From NCBI GenBank assembly GCA_016788565.1, contig JAEUSP010000011.1, positions 1 to 64,000 of the forward strand: 64,000 nucleotides of DNA. The letters run 5' to 3'. Made by a program: the position numbers and the translations under genes. This DNA comes from Chlorobiota bacterium. Its GTDB lineage: Bacteria > Bacteroidota > Ignavibacteria > OLB7. Of the stretch, positions 8,535-31,317 are shown piece after piece. The notes beneath the pieces are model-generated. The model did no database searches and had not been told where the DNA came from. It saw nothing but the letters and a program-made list of their open reading frames with translations. How positions within the stretch are numbered: position 1 is the first letter of the stretch; each line of letters starts with the position of its first letter.

Positions 8535-11500
8535 TCACGGCATCACCACCAATTTCTTCACCCCGCTCTCCACCGCCTCACCCGCTTGGTTGGTCCCTTC
8601 GACCCGATAGAGATAAATCCCGGTTGGCACAATTTCGCCGTTGCTGGCGCGGCCATCCCAGCTTACTAACTGGTCGCCAGCATGGCTTTGGAGGGTGGCG
8701 ATTGCCCCGCCACTCTGCGTGAAAATCGTCACCGTTGCGGTGCGGGTTAGTCCGCCAAAGGCTACCCGCTCATCTTTCAGCAAGGAAAAGGGTTGCGGGT
8801 AGGCAAAGGCCCCCGAAAGGTCGCTCCCCTCCAACGTGAACCCAACCACACTCCCCGCGCCATCACCAATCTCTTTCCCCTGAAGGTCCTTCACCCCTTT
8901 CACCGTCACCAAGTAGGGGCGGCCCAGCGGGGCAAGCTGGTAGGAATCGGGAAGCGAGAGCAAGGCCCGCTGCGGATCTACCGGATCAATCGCCACGGCA
9001 AGGATTGCACCGGGTGGGTCAAGCTGGTAGTTGGAAATATCAGTCGCCGTTGCCGGGTCCGGCTGGCGGTTGAACTCAACGGAAATTTGATGCTCCCCCG
9101 TTTTGGATGCACGCGCCGCAATGAATGGAACTCCATCAGCGGGAGCGGGGAACTCCACCGTGACGCTGCTTGCCGTGTCTGCCGGCGAGCCGTCGCGGTC
9201 ACGAAGCAGGTAGGTTGGCTGAACCCGAACAACACGCCCGGGATGCGGCGCAGAAAACCGCACCAATAACGTCGAATCGCTTGCTGCAATCACCGATGAA
9301 ACGGGAAGTTCCTGGCCACTCTGCAGGTCGCGTACCAGCACCGCTCCGGCGCGCTCGGTGCTTTGCCGCATCGGGTAGCTGAAATGAAGCAGCAAGGATT
9401 CCGACGAAGCGGCCAGGGCCGCCACCAACCGCGCTGGCTGGTGAGCCGTTACCACCAACAAATTGCTGGCGGTCGCCACCTCACCCGTTGCAATGTTGAT
9501 TGCCCGCACCAAGTAGGCATACCTTCCCCCTGATTTCAGTTTTCCATCCGGCATTCCCGCTCCAGCGTCAATCGTGGTTCGGTTGTTTGTTCGTTGAATT
9601 TCTTGCAGGCTAATGCTTTCGCTTCCGGGAAGGACCTGGCCCGACAGCACCGCAAAGGAATATCCACTTGCTTCTGGGCCTAACCACGAAAGGGTGATTG
9701 CCGAATCACTCACGGCCCACCCCGACAAGGCAAGCGCTGGTTCCGCGCCACGGATGTAGCTGGAATCCAACCGGTAAAAACGGATGGAGTCGCCGTCGCC
9801 AATCCCCACACCACGCTGGTCCCCATTCCCCAACGGGACGGTGAACAGGCGGTAGTTGATGGGGCCGTAGGTCCACCACACTGGCTTGATTGCTGTTCCC
9901 AGAGCATTGCCGTCGAACAGATAGACGTTCGGGAAAAGCGATAGAGCCAGATACTGCTTCCTTCCCGATGCAAGGTTCACCCCGCCAATCGCATTGCGGA
10001 AACCGCCGCTGATTTGGCGATACGCAAACCGTTGGCTCCAGACCAGCGAATCGGTTCCATCGGTGAATCGGAGGTACGCATTCACCTGCCAGTAGGGGGC
10101 TTCGTACTCACGGTCGTTGTTCATAAACGGTGAGGAAGCAACGGCGGTGAGTATCAGCGAGCGACCTGCAAAATTCACCGCACCAATCAGCGGGGCGTTT
10201 CCGCTGCCGTTGTTCAGCTTGGTCCAGACTAACCGGAACACGCCGTCGTCCCCCCGCTCGTAGGCCATGAAATCGTTGTCGTCGTCGGCCAGAAGAACCT
10301 CCATCCGTCCGTTGCCGTCAAAATCGGCCAGCACCGACTCGCTGTTGCTGAAGCTGTTTTTTCCGCCAGGGACTGCGGGTGGGGTTGGATTATCCAAGCG
10401 GGCAATCTGCTGGTAGCCGGTTCCGCCCCACTTCAGGATGTAGAAATAACTTCCGGCGGTGTCCGGCTCGCGGCTGCGGACGATTAGCTCCATCGTGCCA
10501 TCATTGTCAAAATCAAACGTTCCGCTGGGGTAGAAGCCGCCGCTGGTGGTGTCGGCAAATTTGATGGTGGCAAACGGCGACCCGCCCACGGTGGCTTGCT
10601 CGAACACCACCCCCTGCCCGGCTGATTGCCCAAACACCTCCAACAACCCGTTTCCGTCGGAATCCCCCAGGCCCCGCGGTGCCCAGTTTCCGGTTGAATC
10701 GCGGGGGGTGAACGCCGTTCCATCGAAGGAGTAGGCGATCAGTTTATCGAACTGCCCGGCATTGAAGCGATTGAGTAAAAAGCAGGGCTTGCCGTCGGCA
10801 TACATCTGCGCGGTTTGGTCCAGCGGGTATCCGTACGGAAGCACCGGACCCGCTTCAACAAGGGTGTTGGTTGGCATTGCGTCCGGTTCCAACATCACGT
10901 TCAGCGGGGCCGATGCCGAGCCATGCAACGCCGTATCGCCGGCACTGTTCACCGCAATCACGTAGGCATCGTAGCCAACCCCGCGCTCCAATTCTTGGTC
11001 GGTGAGATAGAGGTAATGCGTCCGTGTGAAAAGCGATTTTTCCGGCTCCAGATCAAGCAGCCGCCACGGGATGTTCGGCGATGCTGTTGGCCGAAGATAG
11101 ACCCCGGCCCGCGTCAAATCGTCGGTGCGGAACAGCAGTGCAACAGCGCGGCGGTCGAACCTCCAGATGTTTGCAACCTCCACCGGGGCTGTGAATTTCG
11201 GTGCGGTGTGATCCACAAACAATCGGACGCGCTGCTCGGTTTGGCGGCCATCGGTCAGCATCAACGTCAGCCGCAGCGTGAGGGTGGTGTCGGGCAGCCC
11301 GGCCGTGCTGAAGCTCCCCAACGTGTCGCGCATCAGCCCCTTCCTGCCCCGCTTCCCAATCGGCTTCCACTCTTTTGGCGTTTCGCCCAGGCCGTAGGAA
11401 AGCTCCCACCAATCCAGCAACGGGGCCATCACCGAGCCAATCACCGCCACGGCCGTGTCGCGGCGGAAACCAGTTTCGGCGGGTGGGTTTGTCAGGGCAA

Positions 11501-12929
11501 CTTCAGCCGGGCCGGGGAAGTTCACGGCACGGCGTGCGTTCACCCGTCCGGCTCCGTAATCAATATCCCAGCCATCGTTGCGGCGGTCGTCGGCGGTTAG
11601 CTCCATCACCGTTCTGATCTCATCCGGGGTCCATGTTGGATGAAGCGTCCGGAGCAACCCCGCCACCCCCGCCACAAACGGCGCGGCCGCGCTTGTTCCG
11701 CCGAAGCCGGTGGAGTAGCGGCCAAACGTGTTTGTGGTGGCGATTGAGGAACCAGGCGCGGCCAGCGAAACATGCGATCCCGAAGTGCTGAAACTGGTGC
11801 GGACATCGTTCGAGTCGGTGGCGGAAACGGAGATGACTTCGGGGTAGTTGGAAGGGTAGTGATTGAACACACCGCCATCGTTTCCGCTGCTGCCAACCAA
11901 CACGCAACCCCGCTGGTAGGCGTAGCGAACCGCATCGTGCATCAGCGGTGAGTAGTAGCTGTCGCCGAAACTCATATTGATGACCTTCGCGCCACGGTCG
12001 GCGGCGTAGATAATGGCGGCGGAGATGTCGTCATCCTCCCCATTCCCCCGCGAGTCGAACGCCCGCAGCGCAAGCAACCGGGTGCGCGGGGCAACGCCAG
12101 CAACGCCAATCTGGTTATCTGCCGCCGCCGCAATAATCCCTGCCACGTTGGTTCCGTGGGCGTTGAACTCACCCGACAGCGGATCGAACGGCACGGGGTC
12201 GCGCCCGGTCCAATCGCCAACGTTCAGGGCTGTTTGGTCCACAAAGTCAAAGCCGATAACATCATCGGGGATTCCGTTTTCATCTTGGTCAACTCCATCA
12301 AAATCGCCAGCAATTCCTTCCCGCGTCTCGCTGGCCGGCCAGGGGTCGAACCTGCGGTTTCCGTTGCGATCCTCGGCGGGGTTAATCCAGAGTGAGGGGA
12401 GCAAATCGGGGTGCAGGAAATCAATGCCGGTATCCACCACCCCAACAATCACACTGCTATCCCCTTCGGTCCGTTCCCACGCGGCTTCAATTTCCAACTT
12501 CCGCAATCCCCACTGCCGCCCGTACAGCGAATCGTTGCGGAAGCCATCCACCCGGTAGGTTCGGTTCGGGAAGGCAAGCTCCACCTGGGGCTGCGAAGCC
12601 AGCTGGGAAAGCAACGGAGCCACGGCGGCAGCGGAATCAAGGTTCACCACCACGTATCGGTTCAATCGGTTTGCGGCAAGCAGTGAGGTTGCGGTTTTTC
12701 CGTTCAAGAAGCTCCGCATCTGCGCTGTGGCCCCAACTCGGTTGGCGCACTCGGCAATCACCCCCTGCATTTCTTTCTGCGTGACCCCTTCGCGCAATCG
12801 CAGAATCAGCGAGCCAGGTTCGGGCAACGGGCGTTTGGACTGCCCCACAAGGAGAGCAGGAGCCAACAGCAACCACGCAGCGATACGGGCAACGGCAAGG
12901 AAGCGGGAGCGAGCTTGGCAGAAATTCAT
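8535..12929 (-). CDS. secreted subtilisin-like (S8) protease with FG-GAP-like repeats and T9SS-type C-terminal domain
   Basis: A 1464-residue exported multi-domain protease. The order is signal peptide (MNFCQARSRFLAVARIAAWL...), an inhibitor-like prodomain ending near 120, then the S8 catalytic domain. The triad is D166 (VVDTGID), H258 (HGTNVAG) and S413 (GGTSAAAPF). Next come beta-sandwich segments and, about residues 730-870, three calcium-loop motifs resembling FG-GAP/VCBS blades (GDSDGNGLLEVF, DFDNDGTMELIV, DFDGNGRMEVLL). Fn3/Ig-like domains follow. The last ~85 residues have the pattern 'YPQPF...WDGRASNGEIVPTGIYLYRV...KLVVMP', a FlgD-like/T9SS type A sorting domain. The likely fate is T9SS export and surface anchoring or release, to degrade extracellular protein. 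I chose the start at 12929 over 12965 because it gives a standard signal peptide and avoids overlap with the divergent chelatase gene. Confidence 0.88.
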   Translation of the reverse strand: MNFCQARSRFLAVARIAAWLLLAPALLVGQSKRPLPEPGSLILRLREGVTQKEMQGVIAECANRVGATAQMRSFLNGKTATSLLAANRLNRYVVVNLDSAAAVAPLLSQLASQPQVELAFPNRTYRVDGFRNDSLYGRQWGLRKLEIEAAWERTEGDSSVIVGVVDTGIDFLHPDLLPSLWINPAEDRNGNRRFDPWPASETREGIAGDFDGVDQDENGIPDDVIGFDFVDQTALNVGDWTGRDPVPFDPLSGEFNAHGTNVAGIIAAAADNQIGVAGVAPRTRLLALRAFDSRGNGEDDDISAAIIYAADRGAKVINMSFGDSYYSPLMHDAVRYAYQRGCVLVGSSGNDGGVFNHYPSNYPEVISVSATDSNDVRTSFSTSGSHVSLAAPGSSIATTNTFGRYSTGFGGTSAAAPFVAGVAGLLRTLHPTWTPDEIRTVMELTADDRRNDGWDIDYGAGRVNARRAVNFPGPAEVALTNPPAETGFRRDTAVAVIGSVMAPLLDWWELSYGLGETPKEWKPIGKRGRKGLMRDTLGSFSTAGLPDTTLTLRLTLMLTDGRQTEQRVRLFVDHTAPKFTAPVEVANIWRFDRRAVALLFRTDDLTRAGVYLRPTASPNIPWRLLDLEPEKSLFTRTHYLYLTDQELERGVGYDAYVIAVNSAGDTALHGSASAPLNVMLEPDAMPTNTLVEAGPVLPYGYPLDQTAQMYADGKPCFLLNRFNAGQFDKLIAYSFDGTAFTPRDSTGNWAPRGLGDSDGNGLLEVFGQSAGQGVVFEQATVGGSPFATIKFADTTSGGFYPSGTFDFDNDGTMELIVRSREPDTAGSYFYILKWGGTGYQQIARLDNPTPPAVPGGKNSFSNSESVLADFDGNGRMEVLLADDDNDFMAYERGDDGVFRLVWTKLNNGSGNAPLIGAVNFAGRSLILTAVASSPFMNNDREYEAPYWQVNAYLRFTDGTDSLVWSQRFAYRQISGGFRNAIGGVNLASGRKQYLALSLFPNVYLFDGNALGTAIKPVWWTYGPINYRLFTVPLGNGDQRGVGIGDGDSIRFYRLDSSYIRGAEPALALSGWAVSDSAITLSWLGPEASGYSFAVLSGQVLPGSESISLQEIQRTNNRTTIDAGAGMPDGKLKSGGRYAYLVRAINIATGEVATASNLLVVTAHQPARLVAALAASSESLLLHFSYPMRQSTERAGAVLVRDLQSGQELPVSSVIAASDSTLLVRFSAPHPGRVVRVQPTYLLRDRDGSPADTASSVTVEFPAPADGVPFIAARASKTGEHQISVEFNRQPDPATATDISNYQLDPPGAILAVAIDPVDPQRALLSLPDSYQLAPLGRPYLVTVKGVKDLQGKEIGDGAGSVVGFTLEGSDLSGAFAYPQPFSLLKDERVAFGGLTRTATVTIFTQSGGAIATLQSHAGDQLVSWDGRASNGEIVPTGIYLYRVEGTNQAGEAVESGVKKLVVMP

Positions 12930-13028
12930 CAAAAAAGATACGAGTTGGGAGGAAGAGTTTGGCAACAGCCGCAGATTTCTGCTTACGTTGGCAAGCAGAT
13001 CAACAGCAGATCAACAAACGCAAAGCAC

Positions 13029-19323: not shown

Positions 19324-20676
19324 CTACTTCTGCAAAATGATGAACTCCGTTCGGCGATTTAATTGGCGGCCTTCTTCGGTTTCGTTGCTGGCGGTGGGGC
19401 GGGTTTCGCCGTAGCCGACGGTGAACAGCCGCTTGGGGTCCACCCCCTTGCGGATCATGTAGCCGCGCACCGATTCCGCACGAAGGTTGCTCAGTTTCAT
19501 GTTGTAGAAATGGTCGCCAGCGTCGTCGGTGTGTCCTTCAATTTTTAGCCGAAGCGTTGGGCGCGCACTCATCAGTTCAACCAAGTAATCCAATTCCGGC
19601 ATCGAGGCAGCTTCGATGGTGTAGCGGTTGGTGGCAAACCGGATATTTTCCAAGATCAGTTTGCGCCCAACTTCCAGCACCGAAAAACTTTTCTTCACGG
19701 TCACTTTCTGGTTTGGCAAGCGGATTTCCACACGGATGGAGTCGGGGATAAAGTCCGCACGGGAACGGTAGGTGGCGGTGTAGAGTGAGGTCATGGTGTT
19801 GACAAACCGGTTCAGCACCTCGCTGAAGGGTTGGCGAATATCGAACACCTGCCCTCCGGTTCGTTCGGCAATTTCCGAATATCCCTCCACAGCTGGCGAG
19901 GTGATGCAGAATGCCCGAATCTCGAAGCGGTTCAGGATGGTGCTGATGGTGCGTGGGGTGTACATTGTTCTTCCGCTTCCGTAGGTGTGGTAGGAAGCAT
20001 CGGTAATCAAAATTGCGCAGCGGTTTGCGCTGGAACGGAAGTTCATTCCGGTTGCCGCACGCAATGCCTCCAGCGCGTTTTCCGGCTCGTCCCCTCCCCC
20101 TTCAGCCTTCAGTTTACTCACCCATGTTTTGAACTCGTTGATGTTGTCCGTCAGCCAGTAGCGGTCGTTGACGTTGTCGTCAAACACCACCAATCCCAAT
20201 CGGTAATCAATCCCTTTTGCGGCAAGGCGTGTGGTGAACTCATCAATGTTCTGCTTCACCGCATCAATTTTATCCCCCATGCTTCCGGTGTGGTCAATCA
20301 GGAAGACGAAATCAACGGGAACACGGTTTTGGCTGGTGATAAGTGAGAGTGAGGTGACTTCCTGGGGCGCGCTGTTTTCCGTGATGACGATGTCCGATTT
20401 CCGCAGGCTATCCACAAACCGGTACTGGCGGTCGAAGACATCGAAGACAATGCTGACAAAGGGGAATTTGGTGATGTCAATGTTCCGAATCGCCACCCGC
20501 AAGTTGCTGTCAAGGGTGATGACGGTGGTGGATTCTAGAGTTCCTGCGCCGCCGTTATCCTGTTTTTTTCCCTGTGCAATTCCGTGGGTTGCCAGCAGAA
20601 GCAGCGCGGCAATCGCCACCCACATTTGCCGGAGCGTGCGTTGTGTTATGGATGAAACGGTTGGGGTAGCATTCAT
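19324..20676 (-). CDS. exported VWA-OmpA protein (peptidoglycan-binding, von Willebrand A domain)
   Basis: A 450-residue protein. A signal peptide (MWVAIAALLLLATHGIAQG, ending near 36) is followed by a beta segment, then a VWA domain with MIDAS-like DHTGS (128-132) and 'RCAILITDASYHTYG' near 235. A C-terminal OmpA-like domain (about 345-450) has 'IEGHTDDAGDHFYNMKLSNLR' and 'GYGETRP', which in this family hold diaminopimelate of peptidoglycan. It is therefore probably periplasmic, tethering a metal-dependent adhesion domain to the cell wall. It is the last gene of a minus-strand group with two outer-membrane proteins and a single-span GldM-like protein. I chose the start at 20676 for the signal peptide; the frame is open to 20820. 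Confidence 0.85.
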   Translation of the reverse strand: MNATPTVSSITQRTLRQMWVAIAALLLLATHGIAQGKKQDNGGAGTLESTTVITLDSNLRVAIRNIDITKFPFVSIVFDVFDRQYRFVDSLRKSDIVITENSAPQEVTSLSLITSQNRVPVDFVFLIDHTGSMGDKIDAVKQNIDEFTTRLAAKGIDYRLGLVVFDDNVNDRYWLTDNINEFKTWVSKLKAEGGGDEPENALEALRAATGMNFRSSANRCAILITDASYHTYGSGRTMYTPRTISTILNRFEIRAFCITSPAVEGYSEIAERTGGQVFDIRQPFSEVLNRFVNTMTSLYTATYRSRADFIPDSIRVEIRLPNQKVTVKKSFSVLEVGRKLILENIRFATNRYTIEAASMPELDYLVELMSARPTLRLKIEGHTDDAGDHFYNMKLSNLRAESVRGYMIRKGVDPKRLFTVGYGETRPTASNETEEGRQLNRRTEFIILQK

Positions 20677-20829
20677 ACGTATCGTTAGCTGGTTCAGTGC
20701 GTCATCTGGGGTGGCGCGGATGCTGGTGCGGTGAATATCCATCAGTGCTGGCTTCGATGCTTCGACAAACTTAGCACTTAGCACAAGCGGCGGCGAAAAA
20801 ATAGAACGTTCCTTGTTCACAAAACGATT

Positions 20830-20879
20830 GTGTCTCTGCCATCAGCATCCAACTATGGATTAACTACTGGCAGAGACAC
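20830..20879. other. perfect 12-bp inverted repeat with 26-base loop
   Basis: GTGTCTCTGCCA (20830-20841) and TGGCAGAGACAC (20868-20879). It lies in the 287-base gap between the VWA-OmpA gene and the next upstream gene. No T-run follows, so it could be an operator, a leader hairpin or a repeat. Confidence 0.5.
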
Positions 20880-20915
20880 CATAAGCCCGTTGCGGGTAAC
20901 GCGCCGCCCCCCGAA

Positions 20916-20962
20916 CGTTGGGGAAATTGCGGGACAACGGCGCGCAACCGTTGGGGAAATTG
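20916..20962. repeat. 14-bp direct repeat CGTTGGGGAAATTG x2
   Basis: Identical copies at 20916-20929 and 20949-20962, separated by 19 bases, immediately beyond the stop codon of the outer-membrane protein gene. The second copy is part of a GGGGAA...TTCCCC stem (20953-20973) that reaches into that stop codon. Confidence 0.6.
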
Positions 20963-20963
20963 G

Positions 20964-22442
20964 TTAATTCCCCATGTCAATCTTGAATCGCAGAATCGGC
21001 GAGATCATAAAGAAGTGCCGTTGCTCCCACGGGGCTGGGTTTTCGCGCAGCAACGGTGTGCTGTACTTTGCTTCGATAAACAGCCAGTTTGGGAAGAGGG
21101 GGATAAACCCGGAGATCATCAAGTTTTGGTTGGCAAGTTGCGCGCTTAGGCCAAACGGGAAGCCCGATTGGTTCAAGTAATCCACTTTGAACATCACCCA
21201 ATCCTCGGCGGTGGTTGGGTGGATGATGCCACCGTTCTCGTAGCTGACAACCGTTGCTTCCGATTCGAACTGCGAAGGATTTTTCTTGGTGTGAGCCACG
21301 AATTTTCCGGCACCATCAACAAACCCCAAAAATCCACGGGCGTAATCTTGGTAGCTTAAGCCAACGCTAAAGCGGAAGAAGTGCTCGTAGTCGTTCAACC
21401 ATGTTTCCCAGAAGAGGGTTCCCTGCACGACGTTCCGCAAGAAATATGCGGCCTTTCCGGTGTCGGGAAGCGCGCCACGCTTGTTGATTGCTTCGGGGAA
21501 CCAGACCACCGATTTATCAGGATCGAACCCACGCTGCTCCAGCTTGCCGAACGGGACCTCGGTATTCAACGACATACCGAAAATGGAGTTTGTGGAGAGC
21601 CAGAATACCGGCGGGCGATAATCCACGCGGGCAATGGCTTTCCCACCCAACGAACCATTCAGCAAACGCGCAGGGATGGTGCCGCTCAGGAAGGAATCAT
21701 CTGGCCCGCCGAACTTCAATCGGTAGCCAGCGCCCAGCATCACGGTAAGAATATCGGGAACCCCTTTGGAGCGAAGCTCGCCGTTATCCAACTCAATAAT
21801 TGGATATTTCAACGAAGCCTTCCCCTGGCCTGATGCCCAGAAGTGGTAGCCGATTTCATCGTTCCCCAGCATGTGCTCAATTCGTGCACCGGTGGTTCCG
21901 ATCTGCACGGTTTGCTTGAATGCCGAGACGGCGATGAATTGCCGTGAGTTCACCGGATTCAGCACGTCGGGAACGCGCTCGGGGTCCTTGGAGGTGACAG
22001 GGCGAGCCGGCTCGATCACTGCATGGGCGTAGTTGCGCAGCAGGATTTCTCGGTACAGACCATCGCCCAAATCATTCTGGAGTTTACGGCTACCGTTGAT
22101 AACAGCATTTTTTGATGTGTCGCCAACGCGAATTGTCAGCAATTCCTGGGGGCGGCCCGGCTGCACAAAGCTGGCCACCACAACCATGGAATCCCCTTCG
22201 CTGACGGCGTAACCGTAGCCCCGGAAAATTGTTGCCAGCTTAATCTTCAGATTAGCCTCCAAAATTTTCCACCGCGGCATGTACTTCTCAAGGTCGGGAT
22301 CCAACCGCGTCATATCATCAATGTTTTCCCGAAGGTCGTTTGTTGTTGGCGGTTGTGCCGCCGCACTTGCAGGCAGAAGCAGCATTCCCGCGACGATCAG
22401 AGCGGCCCCCACGGGGACCGCAAGTCTCAACAGCTTTCGCAT
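20964..22442 (-). CDS. predicted outer-membrane beta-barrel protein, unknown family
   Basis: A 492-residue protein with a clear signal peptide (MRKLLRLAVPVGAALIVAGMLLLPASAAAQ). About 140 residues follow that look globular, with a charged opening and 'TLI RVGD'-like strands. From about 200 on there are alternating aromatic/hydrophobic strands ('IEHMLGNDEIGYHFWASGQG', 'FRFSVGLSYQDYARGF', 'WLFIEAKYSTPL', final 'FFMISPILRFKIDMGN') that look like a transmembrane barrel. I recognise no named family. It lies 55 bases downstream of another predicted barrel with the same architecture (soluble N-terminal part plus barrel), and both sit behind the GldM-like gene, so a shared role in an envelope complex is likely. 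It ends in GN rather than an aromatic residue. Confidence 0.65.
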   Translation of the reverse strand: MRKLLRLAVPVGAALIVAGMLLLPASAAAQPPTTNDLRENIDDMTRLDPDLEKYMPRWKILEANLKIKLATIFRGYGYAVSEGDSMVVVASFVQPGRPQELLTIRVGDTSKNAVINGSRKLQNDLGDGLYREILLRNYAHAVIEPARPVTSKDPERVPDVLNPVNSRQFIAVSAFKQTVQIGTTGARIEHMLGNDEIGYHFWASGQGKASLKYPIIELDNGELRSKGVPDILTVMLGAGYRLKFGGPDDSFLSGTIPARLLNGSLGGKAIARVDYRPPVFWLSTNSIFGMSLNTEVPFGKLEQRGFDPDKSVVWFPEAINKRGALPDTGKAAYFLRNVVQGTLFWETWLNDYEHFFRFSVGLSYQDYARGFLGFVDGAGKFVAHTKKNPSQFESEATVVSYENGGIIHPTTAEDWVMFKVDYLNQSGFPFGLSAQLANQNLMISGFIPLFPNWLFIEAKYSTPLLRENPAPWEQRHFFMISPILRFKIDMGN

Positions 22443-22497
22443 TCTATGGCTGATAAATGGAACGTGTGCGTTATTGAAGATTTCGGGTTGCCGTTGG

Positions 22498-24399
22498 TTA
22501 GAAGTGATACTTCACCGTCACCGCTGGCGCAAAAATGGTCTTGTTCTCCCACGGGTAAGGGTCGCGTAGCACGGCGGCGGCAAGTTTCCCTTCCACCTTA
22601 AAATCCCACCGCTGCGACGGGAAGAACTGAAGCCAGATAGTCCCCAAAATTGATTGGTCGAAATACTGGATGCTGGCCCCAAACGGAATCCGTGTTCCAC
22701 TCCGCATAAACTCCAATTTTCCGGAGACGCTTGCTTTGGTTTCGTCGTCGGTTTTGGCAAACACCATTGTTTCTTTCTCGCCAATCAGCGCGGTTGTGTC
22801 GTTTTGCCGTGCGAACTCATCCATGCCGTACATGGTGGCCCCCAACTTCAAGCGGAACAGGAACTGCGCATTGTCATCAAGGAAGAAACCGAAGCTGTAG
22901 TAGGCTTGGGCGGCATAGCGCACCAGCCAAGCACGTTCGCCACGGTTGTTCGGATCCTCCACAAAACTTCCCCCCTGCCGAAGCAGTTTCCGCGGGCGGA
23001 TGTCGTCAAGGTCTTGCTCGCTGAAGGTGTAGGTGGCAAAGACGTTGAACAGGCCGGAGTTATCCATGATTGGGAAGGCGAAATCACCACTGAAGGCTGC
23101 GCCAATTCCACCAAGTATTTTCTGGTTGTTGTTGCCGAAGCCGCTGGTGGCGTAGGAGCTATCGCCAGTTTCGCCAAAGCGAACGGTAGGAAGCACAACG
23201 CCCAACTTCACATTTTCCAGCATGGCGTTCAGCGTCATGCGTCCACCCCAGATTGAGGGGTAGTTCAGCTCATCAAGGTTGTTGCGAAGCTCCACCCCCC
23301 AGTCGGTTTCTGGGATTACTTTTTTGGCATCGTTCAGTTTGAACTTGCGGAAGCTCACGATCACATCGTTGCCAACGCCAACTTCGTAAGGATACTCGCC
23401 AGCAATGGCAACTTTTGCGCCGTCAACTTTGTTTTCGCTGGTGGTTGTGCCTTCGCCAAACAATCCCCCTGCATCGCCTCCTGCGCCACCAAACAACCCA
23501 CCGGTCTCTTCTTCAGCACCGGAGGAATCATCTGGGGCTGATTCTTTTGGCTCGGCACGCAGCGGGCGGCCTTCGGTGATGCTGGTGAGGATGTAGGGAT
23601 ATTTCCCTTCATCAAGGTAGCTGGCGCGGGCTTTGGTGACAGCCGTGAAATTCAGCTTGGATAAGTCCCGCATTTCGTTCGTCATGTTTTTCACAAGCAC
23701 CGATCCTGGTTCGGTCACGGCTTGCTTCATTTCACCGTAGATGGTGGTGTCGGTACGGTTGGCGGTAAGCCAACTATAGACTTCGCTTCCACCTTTGACG
23801 AATTTGATGTTGAGGGAGGACTCGGCGATGTTCCGCTTCATCCCAAGCAGGGCGATGATGCGGGGCTGCACGCCTTCTTCCACACGCGAGGTGACGATGT
23901 AGTATTCGTCCGGACGGGAATCGCGGGCAGAAATAATACCTTTGGCAATGCCGAAAGCGTTTCCGGCTTCGGTTTCGTCCAAGTCGTCTTTATCCAGGGA
24001 GTAGCGTTTTGCTATCTCATTTCTGAACTGGTCACCATTTCGTGTCGTTGGCCGTTGGGCAATGGTGAGTGCGTTGGTTGCAAAATCGGGAAGCGGATCG
24101 TCGGTAATCGTTTGCCCGATATCTTCCAGCCGTTTTCTGTCTGCGGCATCTTCCGACTCCAACCCTTTTTTAATGCGGGTCAGGAGTTCGTCGCGGACTT
24201 GCCAAATGCGCACGTTGGCCCAGACGACATCTTCAAGCGAAGGGATAAGGTTCGCGATTTTGCGGTCAAGGCGTACTCGCTCTTTTTCATCTTTATCCTG
24301 TGCTTGTGCTGGCTGCATCATTGCCTGGGCAGCGATTGCAACCGCCGCAAGCGCAGCAAGTTTTTTCCACCAAGCGACTTGGGTTGACATAAGCTTCAT
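22498..24399 (-). CDS. predicted outer-membrane protein with periplasmic N-terminal domain and Gly-rich linker
   Basis: A 633-residue exported protein (signal MKLMSTQVAWWKKLAALAAVAIAAQAMMQPAQAQ). Residues about 35-290 are charged, mixed alpha/beta and probably periplasmic ('SLEDVVWANVRIWQVRDELL', 'YYIVTSRVEEGVQPRIIALL'). Then comes an acidic and Gly-rich stretch (GLFGGAGGDAGGLFGEG). Residues about 330-633 resemble barrel strands ('FNVFATYTFSEQDL', 'YAAQAYYSFGFFLDD', 'QFLFRLKLGATMYG', 'GTIWLQFFPSQRWDFKV'), ending in VTVKYHF, a Phe-terminal strand as expected for BAM substrates. I recognise no family. It follows the GldM-like gene by 46 bases, so it probably works with it. Confidence 0.65.
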   Translation of the reverse strand: MKLMSTQVAWWKKLAALAAVAIAAQAMMQPAQAQDKDEKERVRLDRKIANLIPSLEDVVWANVRIWQVRDELLTRIKKGLESEDAADRKRLEDIGQTITDDPLPDFATNALTIAQRPTTRNGDQFRNEIAKRYSLDKDDLDETEAGNAFGIAKGIISARDSRPDEYYIVTSRVEEGVQPRIIALLGMKRNIAESSLNIKFVKGGSEVYSWLTANRTDTTIYGEMKQAVTEPGSVLVKNMTNEMRDLSKLNFTAVTKARASYLDEGKYPYILTSITEGRPLRAEPKESAPDDSSGAEEETGGLFGGAGGDAGGLFGEGTTTSENKVDGAKVAIAGEYPYEVGVGNDVIVSFRKFKLNDAKKVIPETDWGVELRNNLDELNYPSIWGGRMTLNAMLENVKLGVVLPTVRFGETGDSSYATSGFGNNNQKILGGIGAAFSGDFAFPIMDNSGLFNVFATYTFSEQDLDDIRPRKLLRQGGSFVEDPNNRGERAWLVRYAAQAYYSFGFFLDDNAQFLFRLKLGATMYGMDEFARQNDTTALIGEKETMVFAKTDDETKASVSGKLEFMRSGTRIPFGASIQYFDQSILGTIWLQFFPSQRWDFKVEGKLAAAVLRDPYPWENKTIFAPAVTVKYHF

Positions 24400-24445
24400 C
24401 TATTAATGCTTGTGTTAAGTTGTTCGCGCACGACGACGGTGTACG

Positions 24446-26320
24446 TTAACGCTTCCCGATGGTGAAGGTCACGAATGCAACCCCAGCACCGTCGGCACTT
24501 GGTTTTTTCCGCCCTTTCAGGGTAACGGCAAATTCGAATTTGTGGCCGTTGATTGTTGGCTTCACTTTTTTCTTGTCAACATCAACAATCAGGCTCCAGT
24601 TCACGCCATCCACTTTGGAAAGCCGCCCGCTAATGCCAAAGGCTTCGCACTCGGCGCAGGAAAGTTCGGCTTCATCAATGTCGCTGAAATCGGCCACACC
24701 AGAGCCTGTTTTCTGCTTGAAGACCAGCGGCGAGAACGTCTCGTTGAATCGGGTTGGTGTCAGCACAAAGGTGAAGTCGCCAATCCCTTCTTGTTCTGGG
24801 GCTGGGTATTCTTTGGTGACGGTTCCTGGCTTCACTGGTGCGTCAACGGCGGGATCGGTGCTGAGCAATGGGATCCATTTGCTGCGGTCGGCGGTTCCGC
24901 CTGGCTTCCAATAGACGATGGTTTTGATGTCGCGAACGGCATCGCCAATAATCAAATCGTTCGGAAGCTCGGCCGGCTTAAAGTTGGTGCCGGATTGATC
25001 GAAAACCTGGCGGCCATCAATGGTGACCACTGTCTGGTAATCGCCTGGCGGAATGTCGGTGCTTTTCCACTCGCTGGTTGGGTTGTACTTGCTTCCCACC
25101 ACAGCTTTGGTTCCACGGTAGCGTGCAGTTTTCAGTTCCGGGCGTTGCACAATCACCACGCGCTCATCAACAGCACTTTGCCCAACCGTGTTGCGCGCTT
25201 GTGCGGTGATGCTTTGGGCACCTTCTGGCAAGGAAGCGAACTCGGCCTCGTAGCGATTGTTCACCTTGTCAATCTCGGTCAAGGTGCCCAATGGGACATC
25301 GCGCGAGCCATCTTTGGGGCCTAGTTTTACGCGCAATCGCAGCGGCGCGCCGGTGTACCAGAAGATGGTGTCGCGGCCATACTCCCAGCTTGCAACGGGG
25401 TCTTGAGTGACAATCAACGGTTGTTTTACAAGGACGTTGAAGGAGTTCCCGGAGATATTCCCCCCCATCTTATCAGTTTTGCCAGGGGTCATAAGGTCAT
25501 CAATAAGCTGCAGCACACCTTCAAGGTTCACCGTAGCGTCCATCTGCCCTTTTTGCTTTACCAAGGCTTTACGGACGTTTTTCAATTGCTTCACTGTCAG
25601 CTTCACGGTGCCAATCCGCACGGTATCATTATCGCTGGGTCTGGGATTGGTGATGCCAACGATTTTGTTGGTTTTGGAGTACATACGCAGGCGATACCAC
25701 CCTTTGCCACGGTTCGGCTGGAAGCTGATGTTGAACACTTTCACCCGTTGTCCACGGGCAACTTCTTCCTGTGTGCGGACTTCGTTCAGGGTGAAATACG
25801 GGACATCACCGCTGGGGGCTGGCGCGCTTCCGCCGAACAGCGCACGCGGGTTGATGTAGCCGTCGTATTCGGTGCCCAAAGCCGCCTTAAAAATGACGGT
25901 GTTGGGGTCGCCCAACAGGTCGGCAGTGTCGGCCCCAAGTTCAGTTTCGGGCTTGTTTTCATCGGCGATATGGGAGACGATGTACTCAAGGATTGGGATG
26001 TCGTCCCCTTTCACCGGTTTGCCGTTGAACTCGAACGATGCCTTCGGATCACCCACCGAGACTTTGGCTTCGTAGTTACGAACATTTTTGGCGTTGTCGG
26101 GATCCAGAACGATTTGATCCTTTGGGTTCACAGTGATGCCACTGGCACCGCTGCCAGTTTGCAACTGCGAAAGAATCGTCTGCACGATCTGGATAGCTTC
26201 TTGCTGCTGCTTGCGAAGGTTCTCTTCGGCCTCATCGCGTTCGATGAAGATGATGAGAAGCTCAAGAATGACGGCAAGGTAGAGTACGAAATAGACCTTA
26301 CCAGCACCACCTTTGGACAT
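24446..26320 (-). CDS. single-span inner-membrane, large periplasmic protein (GldM/PorM-like architecture)
   Basis: A 624-residue protein with a short cytoplasmic start (MSKGGAGK), one transmembrane helix ('VYFVLYLAVILELLIIFI', about 9-26), a charged coiled-coil (ERDEAEENLRKQQQEAIQIV), then about 570 periplasmic residues of beta-rich domains. These include a segment like an Ig fold ('LRVKLGPKDGS...YEAEFASLPEGAQSITAQARNTVGQS') and a C-terminal CAEC pair. This layout is that of GldM/PorM, the PMF-coupled shaft of the type IX secretion/gliding motor. However, the N-terminal region lacks the usual 'QKMINLMYLV' signature and I cannot prove homology. No GldL-like two-helix protein is adjacent. It heads a four-gene minus-strand cluster with two outer-membrane proteins and a VWA-OmpA protein, and a PorW-like gene lies upstream on the same strand. 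Confidence 0.55.
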   Translation of the reverse strand: MSKGGAGKVYFVLYLAVILELLIIFIERDEAEENLRKQQQEAIQIVQTILSQLQTGSGASGITVNPKDQIVLDPDNAKNVRNYEAKVSVGDPKASFEFNGKPVKGDDIPILEYIVSHIADENKPETELGADTADLLGDPNTVIFKAALGTEYDGYINPRALFGGSAPAPSGDVPYFTLNEVRTQEEVARGQRVKVFNISFQPNRGKGWYRLRMYSKTNKIVGITNPRPSDNDTVRIGTVKLTVKQLKNVRKALVKQKGQMDATVNLEGVLQLIDDLMTPGKTDKMGGNISGNSFNVLVKQPLIVTQDPVASWEYGRDTIFWYTGAPLRLRVKLGPKDGSRDVPLGTLTEIDKVNNRYEAEFASLPEGAQSITAQARNTVGQSAVDERVVIVQRPELKTARYRGTKAVVGSKYNPTSEWKSTDIPPGDYQTVVTIDGRQVFDQSGTNFKPAELPNDLIIGDAVRDIKTIVYWKPGGTADRSKWIPLLSTDPAVDAPVKPGTVTKEYPAPEQEGIGDFTFVLTPTRFNETFSPLVFKQKTGSGVADFSDIDEAELSCAECEAFGISGRLSKVDGVNWSLIVDVDKKKVKPTINGHKFEFAVTLKGRKKPSADGAGVAFVTFTIGKR

Positions 26321-30288: not shown

Positions 30289-30295
30289 GTTCGGG

Positions 30296-30528
30296 AATCG
30301 GGAATCGGTTGTCGGGGATCGGGAGTCGGGGATCGGGAGTCGGTTGTCGGGGATCGGTGGTCAGTTGTCCGTGGTCAGTTGTCCGTGGTCAGTGGTCGGT
30401 TGTCAGTTGTTAGGAATCAGACTTCTTGCCAATGACTAATGACTAATGACTTCTATCGGCAATCGGGAGTCGGGAGTCAGGATTCAGCCAACCACTGACA
30501 ACTGACAACTGACCACTGACAACTGACC
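30296..30528. repeat. heptamer tandem-repeat tract between pyrK and pyrD
   Basis: Almost the whole pyrK-pyrD spacer is 7-base units in tandem. They read TCGGGAA/TCGGGAG/TCGGTTG, then TCAGTTG/TCCGTGG/TCAGTGG, then (after a break at about 30413-30428) TGACTAA units, then TCGGGAG again. The last stretch, TGACAAC/TGACCAC (the complement of the GTTGTCA type), runs up to the pyrK stop at 30529. The unit register changes in blocks, typical of a decaying heptamer repeat. Confidence 0.85.
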
Positions 30529-31317
30529 TCAATGCACCGCCGGAATAGACTCCAGCCGGATGTGGTTATAATCGTAGTTAGGGCCGTGGGTGCAGACCAG
30601 TGTGTACTTGCGGTCGCCGGTTGCCATTTCCACCGGGCAGCCCTGGCAGATTCCGATTCCGCACGCCATCTGGCACTCCAACGATACCTCCAACGGAATC
30701 CCACGCAGTTGGCAAAAATCCCCCAAAGCCATCAGCATTTTGTTGGGGCCGCAGGCAAACACGCGAAGCCCGTCGGCTCCTTCCTCGGCAAGGAACTGCT
30801 GAAGCAACCCAACAACGTTCCCGTGGAAGTCAAGCGAGCCGTCGTCGGTGGCGTAGCGGGCGTTGTGAAGGCGGCCATCGTCGGCAATCATTGCGGCGGT
30901 GCGTGCGCCGTAGATGTTGGCCACCTGCTTCCCTTGCTTCAGCAGCCAATCGCCCAAGAACGGCATTGGCGCAATGCCAACTCCACCGGAAACCAGCACC
31001 GCACGGCGGAACTCACCTTCCAGATGAAATGGAGTTCCCAGCGGTCCCAGAATATCCAACGTCTCCCCCACCTTCGCTTCGGCAAACAGTGCCGAGCCTT
31101 TCCCGACAACGTTGTAGATAATCTCCAGCCGGTCGCCCATCACCCGATGAATGCTGTACGCGCGGCGCAAAAATGGATCGTAAAAACGGCTGGGACGGAT
31201 GTTCAGAAATTGCCCGGGAATTGCTTCGGCAGCAATGGCTTCGGACTGAAACTCAAGGATGTGGACGTTCTGCGCAACCTGCTGGGAACGTGTGATTGGG
31301 ACGTGCTGTTGGTACAT
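30529..31317 (-). CDS. pyrK: dihydroorotate dehydrogenase B, electron-transfer subunit
   Basis: A 262-residue ferredoxin-NAD reductase-type flavoprotein that carries electrons from PyrDB FMN to NAD+. The FAD-binding barrel has 'DPFLRRAYSIHRV' (RxYS motif) near residue 50, the NAD domain starts with 'VLVSGGVGIAPMPFL' near 108, and the [2Fe-2S] cluster is in 'CQMACGIGICQGCPVEM' plus 'LVCTHGP' near the C-terminus. I chose the start at 31317 (MYQQHVPITRSQQV); the frame is open 57 bases upstream. It lies just downstream of the porW-like gene (97 bases). The pyrD partner follows after the heptamer repeats. Confidence 0.93.
   Translation of the reverse strand: MYQQHVPITRSQQVAQNVHILEFQSEAIAAEAIPGQFLNIRPSRFYDPFLRRAYSIHRVMGDRLEIIYNVVGKGSALFAEAKVGETLDILGPLGTPFHLEGEFRRAVLVSGGVGIAPMPFLGDWLLKQGKQVANIYGARTAAMIADDGRLHNARYATDDGSLDFHGNVVGLLQQFLAEEGADGLRVFACGPNKMLMALGDFCQLRGIPLEVSLECQMACGIGICQGCPVEMATGDRKYTLVCTHGPNYDYNHIRLESIPAVH

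Follow-up and report, generated by a model that had tools for sequence, protein, structure and literature searches.

Type IX secretion has been described from Bacteroidia that carry gldKLMN. In these, glutamate E49 of GldL is essential for the Flavobacterium johnsoniae motor, and proton passage via this residue alters the periplasmic conformation of GldM (PMC8986121), whose first domain, D1, consists of five helices (PMC5790014). Kapabacteria and their relatives have the translocon and sortase of this system and none of the motor genes tested for. The cluster considered here occupies positions 19,324 to 26,320, on the reverse strand, of a 64,000-nucleotide stretch of a Chlorobiota bacterium (the window; GCA_016788565.1, contig JAEUSP010000011.1, here C59), and encodes a bitopic protein (M1), two predicted outer-membrane proteins (OMP-A and OMP-B) and a VWA-OmpA protein. 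It is a conserved trans-envelope module that we regard, with somewhat better than even confidence, as one half, made up of force-transmitting and outer-membrane parts, of a divergent, proton-driven motor of the GldLM type that most likely serves type IX secretion or surface-protein movement.

The four-gene cluster

An earlier note on the window had described four genes on one strand that together would span the envelope, and the listing of open reading frames (ORFs) contains all four of them:

24446..26320 (26320-24446), reverse strand: M1, 624-amino-acid (aa) bitopic inner-membrane protein, proposed GldM-like force-transmitting subunit (ORF, alignments, AlphaFold2 model, ratio of non-synonymous to synonymous substitution rates, dN/dS)
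26243..26296, reverse strand: M1 transmembrane helix, residues 9-26, with invariant E20 and an invariant E27-R28-D29 directly after it
22498..24399, reverse strand: OMP-A, 633 aa; signal peptide, soluble N-terminal part of ~300 residues, predicted outer-membrane beta region, terminal Phe
20964..22442, reverse strand: OMP-B, 492 aa; an OMP-A paralogue whose soluble N-terminal part is shorter
19324..20676, reverse strand: VWA-OmpA; signal peptide, VWA domain, C-terminal OmpA-type peptidoglycan-binding domain; a GTG start at 20820 is also possible

M1 and OMP-A are separated by 46 bases and OMP-A and OMP-B by 55 (54 in the earlier note), while the gap between OMP-B and VWA-OmpA is 287 bases when counted from the signal-peptide Met (20676) and 143 from the upstream GTG. 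The dN/dS values (NG86 method, against a genome of the same genus), 0.044 for M1, 0.091 for OMP-A, 0.047 for OMP-B and 0.086 for VWA-OmpA, show all four to be genuine genes under purifying selection.

Eighty named M1 loci were collected, and gene order was counted in 62 related loci with at least 5.5 kb of downstream sequence (locus L170, in which M1 was not resolved by the ORF caller, was left out). Of the 62, 52 retain M1-OMP(s)-VWA/OmpA in this order, across many genera; five further loci have the OMPs without VWA, and in the last five the OMP is absent and an L-type gene lies directly upstream of M1. Several variants of the arrangement were encountered. In family f2 a single cluster reads L2-M2-L1-M1-OMP-OMP-VWA (L048:3323-12877; also L047, L049 and L055), some genomes of this family (L046, L051) having an additional L1-M1 pair without OMPs, and three f1 genomes (L181:5475-7872, L183, L191) carry OMP-like genes after M2, in parallel to the M1 module.

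In its AlphaFold2 model (predicted local distance difference test score, pLDDT, 82; predicted template modelling score, pTM, 0.53) M1 has a single N-terminal helix, residues 5-55, followed by a chain of beta-rich domains, and the GldM/PorM layout earlier attributed to it, one N-terminal transmembrane helix and an elongated multi-domain periplasmic region, is therefore present. The transmembrane helix, KVYFVLYLAVILELLIIIVERDEAE, is almost invariant and contains the buried E20. Columns V9, Y10, F11, L13, Y14, L15, A16, V17, E20, L21, L22, I23, I24, E27, R28 and D29 are invariant among 17 relatives and again in an alignment of 56, though identity over the whole protein is as low as 17-26% beyond the family. 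A single-sequence search detected relatives in 24 of 61 related genomes, a profile search in 27. M1 has no match in Pfam, NCBIfam or the PDB, and its 56 relatives no consistent match in Pfam. The M1 of the window has a CxxC (about C555, C558) close to its C-terminus, and genome G002 encodes an extra 386-aa protein (L037:9189-10349) that matches the C-terminal half of M1 and has a signal-like N-terminus in place of the invariant helix.

OMP-A and OMP-B each match the hidden Markov model of the other at 1e-16 to 1e-19 and have the C-terminal part in common. Both had been described earlier as predicted OMPs with soluble N-terminal parts; the barrel itself is a prediction, and a crude strand-periodicity test of it was weakly positive (z 1.7-2.2). 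Neither protein matches a Pfam or NCBIfam family or a PDB sequence, and 38 relatives gave no Pfam match to known outer-membrane families. The pair would resemble SprF/PorP and PorG as OMPs tied to a GldLM-driven system, and OMP-B of most families has conserved cysteines, reminiscent of those with which SprF/PorG form bonds to GldK (PMC12635249); the OMP-B cysteines are, however, N-terminal rather than in the C-tail. Across the OMP-B family (e.g., L109:14146-15606) three cysteines of the soluble part are kept in 50-57 of 70 relatives, and the OMP-B of the window is without them. The domains of VWA-OmpA are firm (Pfam PF25106, E 3.5e-18; PF00691, E 1.6e-22). This protein resembles PorE in its OmpA-like C-terminal domain, through which alone NF052230 matches it, but a VWA domain replaces the TPR-WD40 part of PorE and the match lies under the PorE cut-off.

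The L-type partner

In family f2, M1 is directly preceded by a gene for a membrane protein (L) with a GldL-like two-helix hairpin and a conserved Glu; an L-type gene occupies this position in seven of the 80 loci. A profile of L built from f2 finds two L genes in the genome of the window, both on other contigs:

L176:896-2089, contig C92: L1, 397 aa, four predicted helices
L177:9180-11608, contig C119: L2-M2; L2, 298 aa, overlaps M2, a second M-type gene

In all L hairpins the first helix contains the stretch GAA-x-L-I...G-L-R-G and the second a Glu, which is invariant in 17 aligned hairpins and replaced by Gln in one further L2 sequence. L (by hairpin profile) and M1 (by profile) were found in the identical 27 of 61 related genomes. 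This co-occurrence partly reflects shared ancestry, as in most families either every genome has the two or none has either; only f9 varies, with one genome that has both and others that have neither. Families f9 and f12 (L264-L267, L304) contain minimal L-M pairs, again followed by OMP genes, and in families f14, f15 and f6 the gene after L1 is of the PorU2 type. In the single-contig genomes G037 and G028, L1 and M1 lie hundreds of kb apart.

An AlphaFold2 model of an L1 protein, made from a 7-row alignment, was set aside as too poor to use (pLDDT 56). Further L1-type paralogues (L185:7671-13456, L190:7293-10521, L193) directly precede a large protein with a P-loop ATPase-like N-terminal domain and have no M gene adjoining.

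Relation to GldL and GldM

Canonical GldL, GldM and GldN were drawn from 16 Bacteroidia genomes, and GldL and GldM were compared by unsupervised hhalign with the 78 protein families that have at least four members among the fetched loci. Self-matches aside, GldL scored highest with the family that includes L2 (score 36.8; runner-up 22.9) and GldM with M2 (51.4), followed by the M1 family (27.7) and then a score of 26.9. With larger sets, L2 matched GldL at a probability of 89% (E 2e-6) and M2 matched GldM at 82-83% (E 9e-6, 173 columns), the latter alignment covering the D2-D3 part and stopping at an IP-x-P stretch. Compared with the GldL hairpin, all L hairpins scored 19.3 and none of 37 control hairpins more than 17.6, and the conserved Glu of L aligns with GldL E49 in hhalign. 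A first comparison of a mixed L set with GldL had given a probability of 0.4%, the signal appearing only with L2-type members; this subset, used in the hairpin and larger-set tests, was picked after the 78-family ranking, which was itself made without that choice. M1 and M2 match each other at 86% over 23 columns, confined to the helix. As the M1-M2 relation is mainly one of the helix and GldM best matches M2, M1 is tied to GldM via M2 and not directly.

The likeness to GldL/GldM (PorL/PorM) thus comprises a bitopic M protein with a long multi-domain periplasmic beta region, an L protein that has a charged cytoplasmic tail and a hairpin whose second helix carries a conserved Glu, and L-M adjacency in several lineages, L2 and M2 being the best profile matches. 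The new proteins differ in their lack of a family match, in a beta-rich D1 and in an invariant Glu within the M1 helix. The loci also differ, since L and M1 are usually unlinked and the OMP pair and VWA-OmpA adjoin M1 instead of gldK and gldN.

An acidic residue in a single helix is a property of MotB and ExbD, and M1 E20 is in this respect similar to the M-type helix of the 5:2 motors MotAB, ExbBD and TolQR. The layout of L1, two helices, a cytoplasmic stretch and then the hairpin, recalls MotA. In contrast, the hairpin motif is another one, the periplasmic part of M1 is much larger, and no match was found to the MotA_ExbB and ExbD families (Pfam for M1 and an f2 L; NCBIfam for the scanned proteins). 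Taken as a whole, the analysis suggests that GldLM belongs, as one branch, to a broader family of motors with differing outer-membrane partners.

The type IX secretion context

SprA/Sov (TIGR04189, E 7.6e-215) and PorU (NF033707, E 1.6e-235) were both detected above cut-off in the genome of the window. The earlier note had reported GldK, GldL and GldN as absent and the GldM signature as missing. In the genome, the GldL, GldM and GldN models, all of which match the Bacteroidia controls, found nothing (gldK was not searched for genome-wide), and gldKLMN in a row was likewise not encountered in these searches. GldM models matched none of nine genomes of the class, vs. all six Bacteroidia controls. 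For GldL (TIGR03513) no class genome scored above cut-off, compared with 18 of 80 genomes of the phylum, and low-scoring matches in other class members were rejected, lying mostly within long unrelated ORFs. Judged by its gene content, the source genome has a predicted type IX system for which no motor is recognisable. L1-M1 and L2-M2 are candidates for the power source of export in this lineage, with the L Glu and M1 E20 as candidate key residues. A literature search found no paper on a type IX motor in the lineage; in the papers on Melioribacter and Kryptonia, the C-terminal sorting domain is the one type IX feature mentioned.

Genomes G006-G008, G010, G011, G014, G018, G021 and others of the class have PorU, and the searches for GldL, L and M1 gave nothing in them. 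A 1476-aa subtilase with FG-GAP repeats and a FlgD/CHU_C-like C-terminal domain, encoded at 8535-12965 of the window (reverse strand), is a probable type IX cargo.

Proposed mechanism and alternative explanations

In the proposed motor, an inner-membrane ring of L would enclose two M1 helices; L is encoded on another contig and has its conserved Glu in the last helix. By analogy with GldLM, proton flow would turn or rock M1, with the buried E20 perhaps offering protons a second binding site, like the acidic residue of MotB or ExbD. The chain of beta domains would cross the periplasm and engage the two OMPs at their soluble N-terminal parts, and VWA-OmpA would anchor the complex to peptidoglycan. 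We infer proton use, the stoichiometry, the contact with the OMPs and the type IX function; a role in type IX secretion or surface-protein movement is suggested because SprA and PorU occur without GldL, GldM or GldN and because in several families L1 lies beside a PorU-type gene.

Several results weigh against this reading. Membership of M1 in GldM is not supported by any direct test: the profile-profile check that the earlier note had proposed gave a probability of 2-5% only, the GldM family profiles (TIGR03517, PF12080, PF12081) match neither M1 nor, in Pfam, any of its 56 relatives, and Foldseek returned generic Ig/cadherin chains for the M1 model, with no GldM among the best 50 of 1947 matches. 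PDB-sequence profile searches with M1, M2 and L found neither GldM nor GldL. A helical D1 like that of GldM was not seen in the AlphaFold2 model, where beta structure predominates in M1 from the end of the long helix to residue 300, and GldL has two helices vs. the four predicted in L1. The separation of L1 from M1 rests on the closed genomes of relatives, because the L1 contig is short and the genome a draft. Finally, PorU is present in all 31 class genomes searched, about half of which have neither L nor M1 by these models, implying either another, undetected motor in those genomes or that L/M1 is not the type IX motor. The earlier note had left the choice between a divergent type IX motor and a separate machine open, and the results are so far compatible with either; the conserved module, the GldL-like partners and the failure to detect gldL, gldM and gldN bear out part of its reading, but M1 gained no support as a GldM.

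The alternative that survives best, which we consider possible but clearly the less probable, is that L2-M2 is the type IX motor and that L1-M1 with the OMPs and VWA-OmpA is a separate trans-envelope machine (for surface motion, export of other cargo or outer-membrane maintenance, for example). The closest relative of GldM in this genome is M2, on another contig and next to the closest relative of GldL, and the cluster thus has the appearance of a second motor, a paralogous one. Both L-M pairs are present together in f1, f2, f6, f14 and f15, M1 has a dedicated OMP pair and VWA-OmpA gene, and E20 is invariant in M1 and absent from M2. Family f10, however, has PorU, one L and M1 and no detected L2, and here M1 may drive type IX secretion; the PorU2-type gene that adjoins L1 in several families also argues against a separate machine. 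Cast in terms of two paralogous GldLM-type motors, the same alternative is held just as tentatively: L2-M2 would be the hidden type IX motor and L1-M1 a new machine acting directly on the OMP pair with its own peptidoglycan anchor; with an L of four helices and a buried acidic residue in M, its layout would lie between GldLM and MotAB/ExbBD.

It is improbable that no motor is involved and that the products form a static or passively mechanical complex, such as an inner-to-outer-membrane tether with a peptidoglycan anchor. VWA-OmpA and the OMPs are typical of such complexes, and the PDB and Foldseek searches recovered no motor protein, but a near-invariant M1 helix with a buried Glu, together with strict co-occurrence and adjacency with a Glu-hairpin L, is the pattern of ion-driven motors of two components rather than of a plain tether. 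That the genes are incidental neighbours without joint function, for which the missing family annotation is the only argument, is very improbable and contradicted by their order in 52 of 62 loci, the short gaps and purifying selection on all of them.

Further features of the window and its genome

31415..33556, reverse strand: PorW/SprE-like TPR lipoprotein, 5 kb upstream of the cluster and on its strand; at most a possible associated component

The PorW-like gene noted earlier does match NF052312 (E 7.4e-25), but at 87.7 bits vs. a cut-off of 250, and it shares the M1 neighbourhood only in the window's own family.

The source genome is a draft assembly of 4.58 Mb in 137 contigs, and the nearest named records are metagenome-assembled genomes of Kapabacteria/Ignavibacteria. 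The Armatimonadetes label of JADZEY01, a record of the same genus, is evidently a misnomer, because its near relatives are Kapabacteria, Chlorobiota or Bacteroidetes records.

Intergenic repeats (GGTCAGTGGTCAGTGG / GGGAATCGGGAGTCGGG) are found at 30290-30530 of the window and at L177:11610-12260, and apparently belong to a family dispersed in the genome; those after M2 (L177:11600-12260) stand where three f1 genomes have OMP-like genes.

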